Source of the DNA: Alloascoidea africana
Lineage: Eukaryota > Ascomycota > Alloascoideomycetes > Alloascoideales > Alloascoideaceae
DNA: 64,000 bases
Assembly: GCA_030581615.1 (NCBI GenBank)
Contig: JAKTTT010000041.1
Coordinates: 124,001 to 188,000 of the forward strand
Direction of reading: 5' to 3'
Each line of letters opens with the position of its first letter. The first letter of the stretch is position 1. This document shows positions 22,562 through 53,652 of the stretch, piece after piece. A program made the translations under genes and the position numbers. The notes under the pieces were generated by a model. That model had not been told where the DNA came from. It made no database searches and saw nothing but the letters and a program-made list of their open reading frames with translations.

Positions 22562-24051
22562 TTAGATATCCCAAATGGCTAATGGGCCGACTTCATTATA
22601 ATCATTTCTGCTGACATATGAGCCCTCTGAATGTCCTCCAAAAATCTGTTTTGCGGCGATTTGGGCACCTAAGAAAGAAGCATTATCGTATCCATAATGT
22701 TTCCATTCCGAAAAGTAATCGGGCATTTTTCCAAGCTTTATCGCAATTGGCGCTTGTCCGTGTGATACTGGCTGTGGGAACTGATTTAATCTAAAACTTG
22801 GAGTCGAAGCTCCATTTCTTGGAGTGTTTTGTCCCGAAGTATTGAATGCTGATGGCACCTCAGAGTACGTGTTTGTCCTCGATATAAGGTACTTGTCTTG
22901 TAAGGCAGAATAAAAGGCCTCTTTGAATCCTTTAATGGATGCGCCGCGACCAACAAGAATAAGACCCTCCCAGCAATTTCCTCGTTTTACTATTTCATCA
23001 ACCTTGGAAATGGATTTAAAAGTTGCATCAACTATCCTGTTTATCAACTCTTCTGTTCCTTTAAACCGTTCCTTGCCAACCGTGATTTCTTCATTATTGG
23101 AATCTAAAAAGGTATTGGTTTCTCTTTCGGCATTTGGCTTTTCAGCCTGCTTCTTGCCTTGCTTTTTCTCTTTCTCTCTTTGCTCAAGTATTTCCCGTGT
23201 ATTTCCGCTGGTAACAATAGCGGCAACATCAACTATTCCCTCTTCTTCTTTGTCGGCATTCTCATAAAGAAATGAGTTCTTTGCCGCATCTGCACTATTC
23301 AAAATCTCAAAAATGTTGGATTTCTTCAAGTCATCAATTCTCTTAGCTGGCCAGTCTGGCAAGAGCGCGGAGAGTGAGTTATTCATGGTGTTTCCACCAT
23401 AGTTTATCGTGACAATAGCATGCTCAACAGGGCAGAACTCAACGATCGGAGTAATTTCCGTCTTCTCATAGCCAACATCAACTACACACGTACAACTTTG
23501 CAACCCATAGGCAAACGAAGCAGCTAAAGCATTTGAAACAATCGTAAAAGCTGGAATCTTTAGGGTCTCAAACACGTACTGTGTGATTTTCTCGATGTTT
23601 ACGCGTGACCATCTACTATCTGACACCAAAAGCAAGGGAGTATACGGAGTGACGCTGAAGGTTTTCGTAGATGACTTGAAAATAAGTTTACTTCCAGTTG
23701 GGAGGTTAGCATTCAGCAAGTTTATGATTTTTCATGGGTGGGCCACGCTACTTACATCAGGTAATTCAGGGCGTCAACATTCACGATCTTACCCTTGACA
23801 ATAGGGTATATAACATGCTCGTCATCTCCAGTCGATGAAAAATATTTATCATCATCCAAATGTTCGGGATGCCTGTATACTTTTGTCGCAACTTCAATGC
23901 TTGGCGGAGTCAAAGAGTCCTGGAGACCCAATTGAGCAAGTGTGGTTCGAGAACCCGGAGCAATGACCTACAAAACATCGAGTTAGAAACTTTGATCTAA
24001 AATAAATTCAAGCACACTTACGAGGTAGTGGTCTTCTCTGAAAAGAGGCAT
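22562..24051 (-). CDS. ARP9: actin-related protein 9 (SWI/SNF and RSC subunit), three exons
   Basis: Nuclear actin-related protein that pairs with Arp7 in the SWI/SNF and RSC chromatin remodellers. Exons deduced: 24051-24022 (ten codons), 23967-23756 and 23690-22562, giving 456 residues, close to the 467 of S. cerevisiae Arp9. The start MPLFREDHYLVIAPGSRTTL resembles the family opening (PFR-D, I-P-S-TTL-Q-GL). Later motifs are SRWSRVNIEKIT, FETLKIPAF, VVDVGYEKTEITPI, NYGGNTMNN, LVGRGASIKGF and GAQIAAKQIF. A charged Lys/Glu-rich insert sits around the middle. Donors are GTAAGT in both introns; the second intron has a GCTAAC branch site and its acceptor (GGAAG) was chosen because only it keeps frame and restores the conserved helix. 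The start faces the 24,199 gene across a short shared promoter. Confidence 0.88.
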
Positions 24052-24198: not shown

Positions 24199-27100
24199 AT
24201 GAGCGATTTCGATGAGAGGTTGACTTGGTCGACCGGCCTTCATCACTGGTACATATCTATGATACCTCGTACCGCTCGAAAGTTCTTTCCTTGTATAGAC
24301 ATATTTACAAATCTTATGGGAAAGAGCGATTGGAACGCGTACGATATCGTAACATTTAAGGACAGTGCGAGGTACAAAAATTTGCAGGAAGTTCTGAATG
24401 CCTATTTCGAAAGAGCTTACTATTACGGAAATAACGCGTCTCAGACAGTGGTTCGCGAGCTTTTTGCCAATGAGAAAGATAAAACGAAAGGAGGCAAGAT
24501 AAAGGTTGGAAGATGCAGGGGTGGAGATTATCTCAAAATGCTCTGGATAGCATTTCAAGCTTATTCTCACATAGGAAACTCTCCTGAACTAAAGCCACAA
24601 ATAGATGAACGGTTTAGAGCTGCTTGCGAGAGGCTAATTCCGACGTTAGACACGTTTGGATTCGTTGTAAGCGAAGAAGCTCTCACAGCATTTCACGAGA
24701 TTAACTTGGCCTTCATTGAATGTCCGTTTTCAGGAACCCTTTATGACAACCGACCTGAAAAGAGCAAGCTACCATTAGCTTTGAATTCTCCTTTTTGCTT
24801 TGCCCTGAACTATCAAGCTAGTAAAACCAATGCCGAGAATAAACCATTCAAAAGAGTGCAAGAGGTGATCATTACTTTGCGGAATATATACCTCTACGAC
24901 TGCTGTATTCGGTCAGATAGTGATGATTTAGAGCAACATTTGAAAAAGATTTCGGAAGAGAAGCTTGCCCTACACTCAAATACCTGTTTTGGATATTTAA
25001 ATGAGTTTAATATGTCATTGACTTTGGCAAATCGAATATTTTCAAGAACAGATGAGGATTTTATTGGCTGGGGTGTTCCACTAAATGACGAGATACGCTG
25101 TTTTGTATCGGATTTAATCGTGGATTGGCACCAAATTTTCAGAGAGGAGATCTGTCTTGATATAGAAGTTATTGAACCCGAAGAAAAGATTTCGGATGAA
25201 CAGCTGATAACCTTTCATGATGATTATAGCAACAAAGAACCAGGATATTGGTTTGGTGCTGATCCATCTAATTATCTCAATTCAACTTATTTATTCGATG
25301 CTTTAATGAAAAGGGAAAAGTTTAAAAAACGATTTTATCCAAACAACACATTGAACAGAGGAATGGCAGAAAAGTGGATTGAATCAGCGGGGAATCTACT
25401 TTCGCTTTTGCTAGGAATGATGCATTATACTGCTTGCCCGATGATTGGCGTTTCTCAGTTTTTTCAAATTGCTTATGCAAATGGGAATGGCGAAAATCAG
25501 ATCAGAAATCTTTTTGCTACAAAGTCGGGAATACACTACATCATTCACACTTTGGTCAGGGGAGGCACAGATGAGACTCGTTCAATGACAAGATTATTAC
25601 CTACATTGATAAGCAAAATTTTGACCTATACTTTAGTCTACATTCGTCCCATTGAAATAAAGTTTTCAACAGAGCTTGGGTTGGATTTGAATGGGAAACA
25701 GACAAAGCTTCAAAATGACTATGAATATCATTTGTTTTCAAACAGCATAAGAAAATTCAATTCCCGTGGAACTTCGATTGTGACTGGACTATGTGATGAT
25801 TATCTGCATTTTGAGAATATCCCATATGCCGATTACAAATCCAAGGCAGAGCAGTATTTTTGCAAGCCTAGTTCATTGGATTATCAGGGGTATCTTATGC
25901 TTCTCGCTTGGTGCTTAGACTCCGCTACTTCTGTTTCATTTAGTTTCTTTGATAGACTCACGAATTTGCAAGTGGAGGACGAATCGCTATTGAAATTTAT
26001 TCGCAAACAACTTGAGCATTTAGAAACAGATATTCCAGGAATATCTCCGGGGCTGTATGGTTTAACGACATATGCTACCCAGTCGTTTCTGCAGCAGTTG
26101 AGTCTTCCGTCAACTATGAAAGAGTTGGAGTCCCATGAATCATTTCATGATAATGTTGTAGCTAGAAAAGTTGACTGGAAAAACAAACAGCTAGGTTTAG
26201 CTGCCACATCAGAATTTTTTAGATTGACGACGCTTTCTTCTCGTCTGCAGTCACCAAAATTAAAGACCCGAAGGAGATCTTCAAGCCCAACAAAAAAAGG
26301 AAACAAAAAAGCAAGGCTATGTAAGGAACTGGATGAGTTACAGGAAGGGATGTCTTTTCTCGAAACTAAGCCAGCTCGAGTTTCTACCGCCCCTAAAATC
26401 TCAATTGAGGAAAACGAAGAAGATTACGCTCACGATCCAGACTTTGAGCCGAAAGAAGATTCGCCTTTCCTTGAAGAAGAGCCTGTTGAGGAGAGTCTCG
26501 AAGAAGAGGAAGAGACCTCTGAAGAAGAGCCTCTTGCAGAAGAGACTTCGGAAGAGGAGCCTCTTGATGAAGAGACCTTTGACGCAGAGCATGCAAAGTC
26601 AAATGAGGAAGATAACCAGAACCAAGACGATTTAGCTGGGGCAACGGATGTTGAAGGACAGCTTTCGTTTGGTACCAGTAGTCTTCAGTTTTCATTTAAA
26701 CTCGACGACGACGAAGACGACGAAGACGACGAAGACGACGAAGAGGAAGAAGAAGAAAAGCATGAAGAACATGAAGAACATGAAGAACATGAGGAACATA
26801 AGGAACATAAAGAACATAAAGAACATGAAGAACATGAAGAAGAGAAAGTAAAAGACGAGGAGGAGGAAAAAGAGAAAGAGAGTCAATTCGAAGAAGAAAA
26901 AGAACAAGAGAAAGAGAAAGAGAAAGAGAAAGAGAAAGAGAAAGAGAAAGAGAAAGAGAAAGAAACAGACGAGGAGGAGAAAAAGATGGAAGAAAGGAAA
27001 ATAGAAGGGTCTAATGCTACTAATGAAAGAACAGATAGTTCTCAAAATCTTGGGCCATTCACAATTATGAACAATAACAGTGACAAGCAGCAATTAAAGA

Positions 27101-28892
27101 GAAGGAAATCAAATGATAGAGTAAATGATAATGGACAATTGGATTTACAGCACAATCAGAAATCAAAGAGACGAAAGTTGAATGATCAAAATAGTACAGC
27201 TGAGGGTTTGCTAAACCCTTCAAAAACGCCTGATAACTTATCAGAAGCTCCGAAAAGGAAAACCGTGGGATCAGGGGATGAGACATCTAAAACGTCTCGA
27301 ATAAGATCGGAAATTTTTGATCGTAAAAATGAAGCACACGAAAATAATATAGCCAAAGAAAATATGCTTTTGAAAAAAAGGGTGAAAGAACTTACAGCAG
27401 AGATGAAAGAGCAATGCAAGATAATTAGCGGATTGAGGAATACAAAAAACCAGCTCGCTAACCAAGTCAAAACTTTGAAAGAAACAATCAATGACCTTCG
27501 AGAATCAGCGAATAGTAGTAATAACGATAAGCAAATAACAGAATTACAAGATTCTCAAAGCGATATTCATTCAACTATGAATAGACTCAAAGAACTTATT
27601 GAATTATCCAACGTTTCAATGGACGACAAAATGGCTGCCTGGGAAAAAACAAAAGAGTCAATTACCAGACTAGTAGAAAGTTGTTCATCTAGGTATGTAT
27701 ACCAATGCATTGACGCTCTTTGATTCTACACTAACTATTTATCAGATGTGAAATACTGTTTGATAATAATAGAAAGTTGTTTGAAATGGTCAAGCAGCTG
27801 GAACCAAAATTAGGAAAGGGGAAAAAAGCCAGTTCAGAGGGATTTTCGGATGCCACCCAGGAAATCAAATTGAAGAAGAGTTTTAGGGGCTTACAAGAAC
27901 GACTATCATTTGAAAAGTCGGACAACCCTGATATGAGCAAAAAAAGATCAGAATCAGACCCGAACATTTCTTCTAAGGGCCGAAATAGCAAAAGAGTGTC
28001 GTTTAGCGATTCTATTGCTGCGCCAGATCCTCAGATTACAGACAGCCGAGAGGGATCCCGCTCGTTGTCACTACAAGGTGGAGACAAAATATCGAAGGGC
28101 CCCTATCGCAACCCTGCTGTCGTCACTGGTGCTAACCGCATTCCTAACCAGCTTTCTGTAAGGCTCGACACAAATTCACATCGTCTTTCACCTGTTCAAA
28201 AAGATGCTAATAGATCCCCTCGCTCTGAATACTCCAGCATGTCGCAATCACCTAACCCAGACAAACATCCATATCCAAAAAATGATGGCTATTTACGCTC
28301 AAAAAGTGTGAGGTCCCCGTACCCTAAGCATACCGACCTTCAATCACGACCCGAAGCGAGGAGGAGCCTTACACATGACGATATAGCTCCTCCACGCGCA
28401 GCATCTCGAAGCTCTTTAACTTCAGATTCGTTTCCAAACGTATCGTCTAAAGGTTCAGAGCTTCTGACTCGAAAACCTATGGCAGATACTATTCGCTCTC
28501 CACAAGCTGCAAATGCATATAAATCGAACAGACCCGACCAAATAAGTTCAACCTCAGACGCCCGGAGTTTGAGAAATCAGAATGATAGAAGGCGCTCCTC
28601 TGACAACAACGATACAGGAACCCCACGGACCACTATCCCACAAAGGCCAGGAACGAAGCCAAATCCAAGCAGTACCAGCATATTTATTAAAGCCAATAAT
28701 TATCGGCCAAGTCCAAGAAATGAGAGTGTTTTCCGTGTGCCCAAGACCAGTAACCTGAAACCTGGCGGAGATGAAGCCAATAAATTGAATGTTCACCCTA
28801 GCACACAAACCTTGGACCCAAGAACACAAACGTCTCGGCATGCCATGTTCCGAATCAAGGACAGCGCTGCTGAAAAGTCCTCCCAAACGTGA
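24199..28892 (+). CDS. large nuclear-type protein with telomere-linked-helicase-like domain, acidic repeats and coiled coil
   Basis: No named function is known to me. Exons 24199-27692 and 27746-28892 join across a 53-nt intron (GTATGT donor, CACTAAC branch, TTATCAG acceptor) into 1,546 residues. Residues about 350-490 follow the pattern I know from the non-helicase part of fungal telomere-linked RecQ-like proteins: GYWFGADPSNYLN, LLSLLLGMMHYTACPMIG, IRNLFATKSGIHYI, MTRLLPTLISKILTYTLVYIRPIE. The usual GQPARG motif is replaced by ACPMIG. Then come Glu-rich repeats (about 730-930), two Lys/Arg clusters (KRRKSND about 966, SKRRKLND about 989) suggesting nuclear import, a coiled coil (about 1045-1190) and a Ser/Pro/Arg-rich tail. 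No helicase domain follows. The intact frame over 4.6 kb implies selection. It shares its promoter with ARP9, a chromatin gene. Gene model firm; homology is from memory. Confidence 0.75.
26701..26962 (+). repeat. three adjoining coding short-tandem repeats
   Basis: Within the 24,199 gene, three different purine-rich arrays follow each other: GACGAAGAC-type units (26,704-26,745), GAACAT-type units (26,761-26,838, encoding His-Glu-Glu and variants) and GAGAAA units (about 26,908-26,962, encoding Glu-Lys). All keep frame. Length polymorphism between strains is likely. Confidence 0.85.
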
Positions 28893-50762: not shown

Positions 50763-53652
50763 TTAAAACCCAAGCGACCGTATTGAAGGAAGCTTGATTT
50801 TTTGATCCTCTGATGCGCTTTCCTGGGCTTCTTGTGTGCTTTTCCCTTCCCATACTTTCAGTTCTTTCTCATTGGAATCAGAAGACGTTCCCACAGGAAC
50901 CTGTTTGGTGTGGAATGTCTGCATAGATTGATTGGCAACCGTCCTGTGATTGTCGTTGGAAGAACGAGGAAATGATAGCGGCGGCAACAAAAATTGTGTG
51001 GTCGAAGAAGCTTCCCCATCTGAATTTTTACCTTCCCCAGTCTTGGAAAGTGGGAATGAAGAATCAAAAGAAGGTAGAAAGCTTGCTTTACTTTTGGAAT
51101 TCGTAGAAAAAGACGGAGTCCGTATCTGAACGCCTAAAGGACTTGGGTGTGGTTGCAGAGAAATTGGGGGGACTGCATGCGCAGATCCAAATGGAGAATG
51201 CGATATGGAACTAGGTGGATATTCTCTGAGACTTTTAATAGTAGATATTTCAGAGTATTTTGCCAGACTTCCAGTTAAACTGCGCTGCAAGTCTGGAAAT
51301 GCAGTAGCGTCTGTAATGCTAGGTTTCTGCCCCATCATGTTGGAGTCGCCAAAAGTCTGTGATGATAAGAAAAAGGGGTTTTCGACAGAAGTACCGGCGT
51401 TCAAGTTTATTGGAGGAATAATATGATATGAGTTAGGAGCACTTCTTGATCTCCCCACATTGTTGCTGTAGTTTGATCTTAACTCCTTTGCTTGCGGCTC
51501 ATTATCTCCTTTTTTAACATCCATCATTTCAACCCGTTCACCTTCGTGATCAAACTCATCAGTAAAGTAGAAACTGCGCCTCTTTGTTCCGGTTGTAGGG
51601 GATATCATCAGAAGAGGAGCACGTTGATATTCTGATCGTAATGAAGACGAAGGTGTGGTCATCTGTGTCGGTTTCTGATTGAATAAATGGCTTCCAATTG
51701 TCTGTTGAGGTTGAAGAACTGGAAGTTGTGCACTTGGTGAGTGAGGGTCAAAAAAATTCTGGGGCTCTCCAGCATTGATGTTTTTCACCAGATGTACTCC
51801 ACTCGCAGGTAGAGATTTTCGGATTTCCATATGCTGCTGGTACTGCTGATAGCTTTACAATCGTTAAAATAAAAAGCCAAATCAAAACAACAAAACTATG
51901 ACTGACCTTTTTCTGTTTCCCTCTTTTCTCAGCCTTAACCTCACTCCCTGTTCACAGACAAGTCTGGTTAACGGGGTAGAAGGCAAAGCACCTGTGTATC
52001 TCTTGGGAGTAAATACTATTAAAAAGCGTGTTAGCGATTCATCCAGCTTGATGTAAGCCCTGATTCAAAAATTCCTGGGTTGCATCTGCCGACAAGGATA
52101 AATTCAATGAGGAAAAATGGGTTTCCTAAATAAGGAATAATTCTAGTAGCTCACCTGTGAAGTAGTCAGAAAATACTGATTGCTTGTATTTGAAGGATGC
52201 TCCCCTAAGATCTGTTAGTAATATGTCGCACTTTAGTTCGTTTGATTAGCATCTTACTCCTGCTCATATAAAGAGAACTTCAACCGATATTGCCCCGTGT
52301 TCAACATCGACAAGTCACCGAAAACAAAAAAAAACCCAAGCCGATCTTTATCTTGTACTTTATGCCCTGAGCTCACTCTGATCCCTATTAGTGGGTTAGT
52401 TGAGCTAAAGTTTGTTGTGTCTTTGCCTAAACTATTCTTTATCTCAAGAGTAGGATTAGGCGTTTCTGAAGTGCTGCTAGCTTTGCTACTGACATTGCTA
52501 CTCGGCTTTGCCCTTAACATTTTATTCTTTTTATTTTCCTTCTTTGAAGTGGTTGAAATGAATGACGAAGAAGATGAGGGCGATGATAGCGAGGAAGATG
52601 ACGATCCAACGGCTGTGTTCAGATCAGAGATTGGCAATCTTTGTCTCTCTTTCTGGTCAGGCTCTTGCTCTTCCTGCCCTTGCCCAAACTCTGGATCTGA
52701 GGTAGAATCAATATGGCATAACATTATAAAATGTTTGGTGAATAGCCAAGGGGGATTATACTCTAAAATATGGTTAATTATTGACGCTTACATTACTTTG
52801 TCCGTGAAAATTCGTACCATTTGGCGTATTATCATGAACCGCGCCGATTGGACTATTTGCGCTGATCACTTTTGAAGCATTAAAGTCCCTGAAAACGGCC
52901 ATCTTGACTATTGGTGGCGGGTCTATCGTCCTCCTATCAGCAAGTCCGCCCTTGTCGTATCTTAAGGTGACTTTACATCGAATCGGTTGCTGTACCACCC
53001 TCAGACTGTACGGGAGTTCTGTTCCAAGCCCATGACTCTGTACCTGATACTGATTTGGAGTTGGAATAGGCCCTTGAGGGTTTATTGACAAAACATGCTG
53101 AGCCGGCACTTGTTGGTAAAGACGAAGATCCTGATGAAACATAGGAGGGGGAGTAGATGGATTCCCAGGTTGCTGATGTGCTCCATGTTGCACAATGGGA
53201 TAGCTTGACACACCACGAGCATCGCTTTCTGTCACCATTGGTCTTTGACCTGGGATGTAACCATACTCTTGAGTCTGGGTATTTAAATACCTAGATGTTA
53301 AAAGATTGCTGTTGTTTAGTATGGATGGAGTTATCTGGCGATTTCTTGTGTTTGTTCTACGCAGTTGGTCTTTCGAACTGTATTCTTTCTCAATGTTTGA
53401 TTCTCTTACTAACCTCAAGTTTGAAGCCCCATAGCGAGAGTTTTGATGAAACGTTATAGTGTTTAGACTGAGCGACGTTGCCAAGTTAGGATCTACTGGC
53501 ACAACCTGATGCTGAAGTCGATTGTTGTTGTCGCCATCTGGTCTCAGGATTGAGTCTGAAAGACGACTGTCATTATTGAAAGCTGATGAGTTAACTTTTG
53601 ATCCTTCTATTCCTTTCCGCGAAGAAAAGATATTATGATCGCCAGAAGGCAT
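50763..53652 (-). CDS. velvet-domain regulator B (five exons)
   Basis: Second velvet-domain protein. Exons deduced: 53652-52818, 52762-52258, 52204-52155, 52015-51907 and 51852-50763, giving 862 residues. About 210 Asn/Gln/Ser-rich residues precede the domain, which opens with RVVQQPIRCKVTLRYDKGG and DRRTIDPPPIVKM, passes YNPPWLF, a Ser-rich insert and FFVFGDLSMLNTGQYRLKFSLYEQ, then YKQSVFSDYF, TPKRYTGALPSTPLTRL and EQGVRLRLRKEGNRK. The C-terminal third is disordered and ends LPSIRSLGF. The 50-nt third exon has the same length and phases as exon 2 of velvet A. The first intron (GTACGA donor, TTTTAG acceptor) is the least certain; the last uses a GTCAGT donor. The paralogues share the unusual CKVTLRYDKGG segment. 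Domain identity is firm. Confidence 0.83.

Follow-up and report, generated by a model that had tools for sequence, protein, structure and literature searches.

The window analyzed here, i.e., a stretch of 64,000 nucleotides from Alloascoidea africana (contig JAKTTT010000041.1, positions 124,001 to 188,000), harbors a gene that belongs to a diverged three-gene family, all members of which possess open frames. The explanation favored for this family, to which a probability of slightly less than one half (approximately 0.48) is assigned, is that its members represent helicase-less, non-catalytic relatives of the core located ahead of the helicase domain in telomere-linked RecQ-like proteins (TLH) of fungi, and that they may have been kept as nuclear DNA- or chromatin-binding proteins. 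Origin and function are both predictions in this interpretation.

The window gene is located on the forward strand and consists of exon 1 (24199..27692), an open frame ending at a splice site, a 53-nt intron (27693..27745) with the signals GTATGT, ACTAACT and CAG read directly from the sequence, and exon 2 (27746..28892), in which the frame remains open after the splice junction and encodes a basic, Ser-rich tail followed by the stop. Translation of 24199-27692 joined to 27746-28892 by means of the standard code resulted in 1,546 codons plus stop. Splice signals and translation thus confirmed the predicted gene as real, with the one long frame, the well-formed intron and the length of 1,546 residues given in the initial annotation. 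ARP9, which had likewise been named as the adjoining gene, was verified by a match to PDB chain 5tgc_B (E 7e-53); it is a divergent neighbor on the reverse strand (22562..24051), with its last exon at 22562-23386 and its first exon assigned by eye. The probable ATG of ARP9 at position 24051, also placed by eye, is 147 bp away from the probable start of the window gene, and because of this short distance any additional upstream exon of the window gene would extend into ARP9. Only a single copy of the last exon of ARP9 is present in the genome.

The genome (23.18 Mb, 138 contigs) was searched with residues 1-700 of the window protein at E <= 10, and three places were found in all, namely the window gene itself and two homologues. 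The paralogue on contig C27 (C27:183066-184631) aligns to residues 27-514 of the query (E 1.1e-23, 27% identity) and the paralogue on contig C50 (C50:124353-125621) to residues 115-504 (E 3.6e-14, 30% identity); the family core accordingly spans residues 27-514 (24277..25740, forward strand). Reciprocal searches starting from either paralogue returned the identical three places and nothing further. Identity among the three members is in the range of 26-30%. Stop-free frames of 1,036 and 1,156 codons and ATG-to-stop ORFs of 971 and 1,148 residues were determined for the C27 and C50 paralogues, respectively, each taken as a single ORF. The window gene had previously been regarded as a lone captured fragment of a telomeric gene, a view that does not hold in this form, as it is one of three diverged open-frame genes.

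Regions outside the core differ among the three members. Both paralogues feature a Cys/His finger-like stretch ahead of the core (CSCG...HARYH and CLLCG...HYKKTH), which is missing in the window gene. Moreover, Arg/Ser repeats precede the core of the C27 paralogue, and the C50 paralogue possesses a charged tail. In the C27 paralogue (L005 3967-6882, minus strand), the Arg/Ser dipeptide repeats ahead of the core are long, and Gln/Asn repeats occur on both sides of it. Low-complexity expansions and the lack of the finger motif in the window copy would be compatible with this copy being the decaying remains of a mobile or subtelomeric element and not a functional gene, but long open frames in three diverged copies, an exon 2 that continues the frame and the conserved columns described below make such decay highly improbable. 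As computed from their positions, the three copies are approximately 55, 100 and 19 kb away from the nearest contig end. The six ends of the family contigs showed no telomere-like array within their terminal 1,500 bases and may therefore be assembly breaks.

Conservation within the family was evaluated for five motifs (40 residues in total) that had been selected in the initial annotation without sight of the paralogues. All five are present on the forward strand, and invariant residues were observed in three of them, namely GYWFGADPSNYLN (residues 349-361, 25243..25281; 6/13 invariant), IRNLF (residues 435-439, 25501..25515; 2/5) and LVYIRPIE (residues 479-486, 25633..25656; 5/8). The remaining two contain only similar residues, i.e., LLSLLLGMMH (residues 400-409, 25396..25425; none invariant, 6/10 similar) and RLLP (residues 465-468, 25591..25602; none invariant, 3/4 similar). 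In the three-way alignment, 64 of the 700 window residues are invariant, and the five motifs account for 13 invariant positions among their 40 residues, compared to 3.7 expected. The hypergeometric probability of this enrichment is 1.6e-5 over 700 residues and 1.7e-4 within residues 27-514. When the motif pattern was slid over residues 27-514, 13 invariant positions were reached in one of 351 placements (the true one included) and 12 or fewer elsewhere; since shifted placements reach up to 12, the enrichment is in part attributable to conserved positions being clustered. Two diverged paralogues keeping long open frames together with the same motif columns indicate that the motifs reflect more than chance.

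The GQPARG box is a hallmark of the TLH pre-helicase core. At the site expected for it, the window protein reads ACPMIG (residues 412-417, 25432..25449, forward strand), which had been interpreted as the loss of an arginine in this gene. The hexapeptide is indeed present, but its deviation is not private to the window gene: the corresponding columns read SCTPFL and SFPNLQ in the two paralogues, and GQPARG is absent from all three members in the three-way alignment. The box was therefore either lost long ago or never there.

The order and spacing of motifs in the region ahead of the TLH helicase appear to resemble those of the family core. For comparison, a TLH core consensus was drafted by hand rather than compiled from TLH sequences, after all three family proteins were known, so that it may be biased. 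The three-member profile aligns collinearly with this consensus in 131 columns (hhalign score 61, probability 95), the best of 200 shuffles reaching a score of 25 and a probability of 3.4. In hmmsearch, the consensus scored 31.4 bits with the core profile and 28.7 bits with the full profile. The best shuffles reached 5.5 and 2.6 bits (1,037 and 987 scored, respectively, of 2,000 made), and the reversed consensus was not among the matches listed. Alignment to the two paralogues alone, i.e., with the window gene left out, resulted in a probability of 88; values for single proteins were 12 for the window protein and 36 and 24 for the paralogues, the latter over 25 columns only. Since the three proteins were known before the consensus was drafted, its alignment to the family profile is considered a lead and not a proof of kinship. 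Based on the motif order and the hand-drafted consensus, kinship of the family core with the TLH pre-helicase core appears plausible, at about even odds.

Comparison with described TLH revealed similarities as well as differences. The family appears to share the pre-helicase motif order and spacing with U. maydis UT5/UT6 and S. pombe Tlh1/Tlh2, whereas it differs from them by lacking a detected helicase and the GQPARG box and by comprising three copies of only 26-30% identity. In agreement with the initial annotation, no helicase model matched the window protein or the two paralogue ORFs. A genome-wide search with the RecQ model at E <= 1 yielded 34 matches, one above the cut-off (on C37) and 33 below; none of the 34 is located on C41, which carries the window gene, or on C50, and two partial matches on C27 are approximately 150 kb away from the paralogue. 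For S. pombe Tlh1/Tlh2, a RecQ match at residues 1180-1820 is given in a published study (PMC7074392). The Cys/His motif of the two paralogues is a further point of similarity to TLH. The U. maydis telomere-linked element UTASb is reported to contain a conserved core together with an OrsD domain, or only one of the two (PMC10532341). In nine Fusarium strains, TLH number in the tens and are situated at chromosome ends, unlike the three-copy family (PMC12857005). The truncated RecQ helicase gene UMAG_11065 of U. maydis is comparable in that its C-terminal part was lost and it is still expressed; in contrast to the three diverged genes, it is located beside a telomere, and its truncation, caused by insertion of an endonuclease gene, is regarded as recent (PMC7593156). 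A screen of 1,237 fungal genomes for transposon-derived domains reported helicases as the commonest and a higher proportion of such fusions among the Saccharomycotina (PMC10799480), and does not bear directly on this family.

Searches of Pfam, NCBIfam, PHROGs and PDB, the last of these by sequence as well as by profile, yielded no credible match for the family. The lack of a profile match had been named in advance as speaking against the TLH relationship; it is not counted as a refutation here, because we know of no model in these libraries that covers this domain. The OrsD model (PF12013) matched neither the three proteins nor five fragments, and its only match in the genome was an unrelated C2H2 protein (18.6 bits, cut-off 26.6). 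Several further candidates were set aside as effects of composition or chance, namely matches of the heptad region to PilJ (E 0.065) and DUF1664 (E 0.074), a match of the Arg/Ser-rich N-terminus in the C27 paralogue to MCM_bind (E 0.0022; 17 bits, cut-off 25.6) and to eight weaker families, one NCBIfam model (E 0.015) and one unnamed PHROG (E 0.25) in one member each, and two PDB chains (E 0.95 and 1.8). AlphaFold2 predictions from the window sequence alone reached a mean pLDDT of 32.1 over residues 1-700 and of 37.5 over the shorter segment 285-523, which is too low for a fold comparison.

The sequence collections available for comparison comprised viral, prokaryotic, phage, plasmid and E. 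coli sequences. Pattern-limited scans of viral contigs found nothing with the hand-drafted TLH consensus and no relatives of the three-gene family, and a genuine TLH sequence was not encountered among the viral and prokaryotic contigs scanned. The DNA pattern for GQPARGxE occurred in 36 viral stretches, 29 of which encode the peptide; as judged by eye, none shows a TLH-like core around it. A longer GQPARG-type pattern was found in two bacterial stretches, one with the peptide in an unrelated context and the other not encoding this peptide. The string GQPARG was not found in the literature searched, and among the literature matches listed no report on this protein family was recognized from titles and abstract openings.

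The missing library matches and the absence of GQPARG from all three members would fit a fungus-specific nuclear protein family that is unrelated to TLH, in which case the likeness would be a coincidence between helical, hydrophobic motifs that contain a few aromatic and Arg-Pro positions. This explanation is possible but somewhat less probable than the favored one, because the 131-column collinear alignment to the TLH core, albeit to a hand-drafted version of it, scores far above shuffles, and motifs named without the paralogues proved rich in conserved columns.

Tyrosine recombinases feature the catalytic order Arg, His-x-x-Arg, Tyr. The invariant Arg/His/Tyr columns past residue 411 are R436, Y477, R483 and H646, and, as judged by eye from the alignment, their order appears to differ from the one stated above. 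The NDC10_II model (PF16787) had a single match in the genome; it lies on another contig, C1, and reached 14 bits (cut-off 26.3). GCR1_C had no match in the genome, and the same search gave none in control genomes either. Furthermore, no integrase was among the PHROGs matches, which were limited to an unnamed family at E 0.25. Yeast precedents for a domesticated, catalytically dead recombinase have been published: Cbf2/Ndc10 and Gcr1 are described as having kept the recombinase-like portion with the catalytic site gone, and Hot1/Msn1 and Cdg1 are likewise held to derive from CryptonF (PMC3212892). A Crypton-line origin of the family, independent of TLH, could be modeled on these cases, but it is unlikely in view of the missing NDC10_II match above the cut-off, the missing GCR1_C match and the lack of an integrase among the PHROGs matches. 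If a recombinase origin applied, the family would resemble Ndc10/Cbf2 and Gcr1 in keeping an inactive recombinase-like core as a DNA binder (PMC3212892), and would differ in that its genome has neither NDC10_II above the cut-off nor a GCR1_C match. It is also conceivable, with low probability, that the TLH pre-helicase core itself is a relative of tyrosine recombinases and that three of its descendants, catalytically dead and free of the helicase, are kept by this yeast to bind chromosomal DNA. Such a domestication would mirror that of Ndc10, in a genome without NDC10_II over the cut-off.

Under the favored interpretation as TLH-core relatives, the three genes would form an old family of helicase-less proteins in this yeast. 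Their core of approximately 500 residues would be a diverged relative of the region ahead of the TLH helicase and would most likely serve to bind DNA or chromatin; it contains no recognizable catalytic residues. The window gene is without the Cys/His finger seen in the paralogues, and an acidic tract, a short, putatively dimerizing coil and a basic tail are attached, a domain make-up that would suit a nuclear scaffold or regulator, for which nuclear localization and dimerization are predicted.

The acidic repeats previously noted were recovered as a low-complexity region with tandem repeats at residues 760-985 (26476..27153, forward strand; 43% Asp/Glu). Much of this tract is encoded by several tandem repeats whose units are 3 to 30 nt long (window positions 26509-26969) and which may differ in length between strains. 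The coiled coil proposed earlier could be retained only as a short heptad stretch at residues 1060-1101 (27376..27501, forward strand). In the test of five 42-residue stretches, this one exceeded 2000 of 2000 shuffles, whereas the other four were reached by 33, 139, 460 and 753 of 2000 shuffles. Moreover, five basic clusters were found, of which the three outside the core (residues 703-706, 967-970 and 990-993) may act as nuclear signals.

If the kinship holds true, the non-helicase part of TLH is able to persist by itself in a family of ordinary chromosomal genes, and this would point to a function of this part apart from the helicase. If it does not, the three genes still constitute a conserved protein family that has no model in any of the searched libraries.

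Further observations concern other genes. Two RPB2-like genes (on C71 and C11) encode proteins that are 83% identical across 969 aligned residues, and besides these two more second-largest-subunit genes are present in the genome, a finding suggestive of a duplication of genes or of the genome, or of a hybrid origin. In a comparison of RPB2 with solved structures, chain 5x4z_B (Komagataella) was closest, followed by 1i3q_B (Saccharomyces) and 3h0g_B (Schizosaccharomyces), and the organism is accordingly likely to be a budding yeast. The Velvet-factor family is rare in budding yeasts; a Velvet-factor domain was detected at window positions 52777-53652, covering positions 1-46 of the 237 positions of the PF11754 model (E 3.5e-9).
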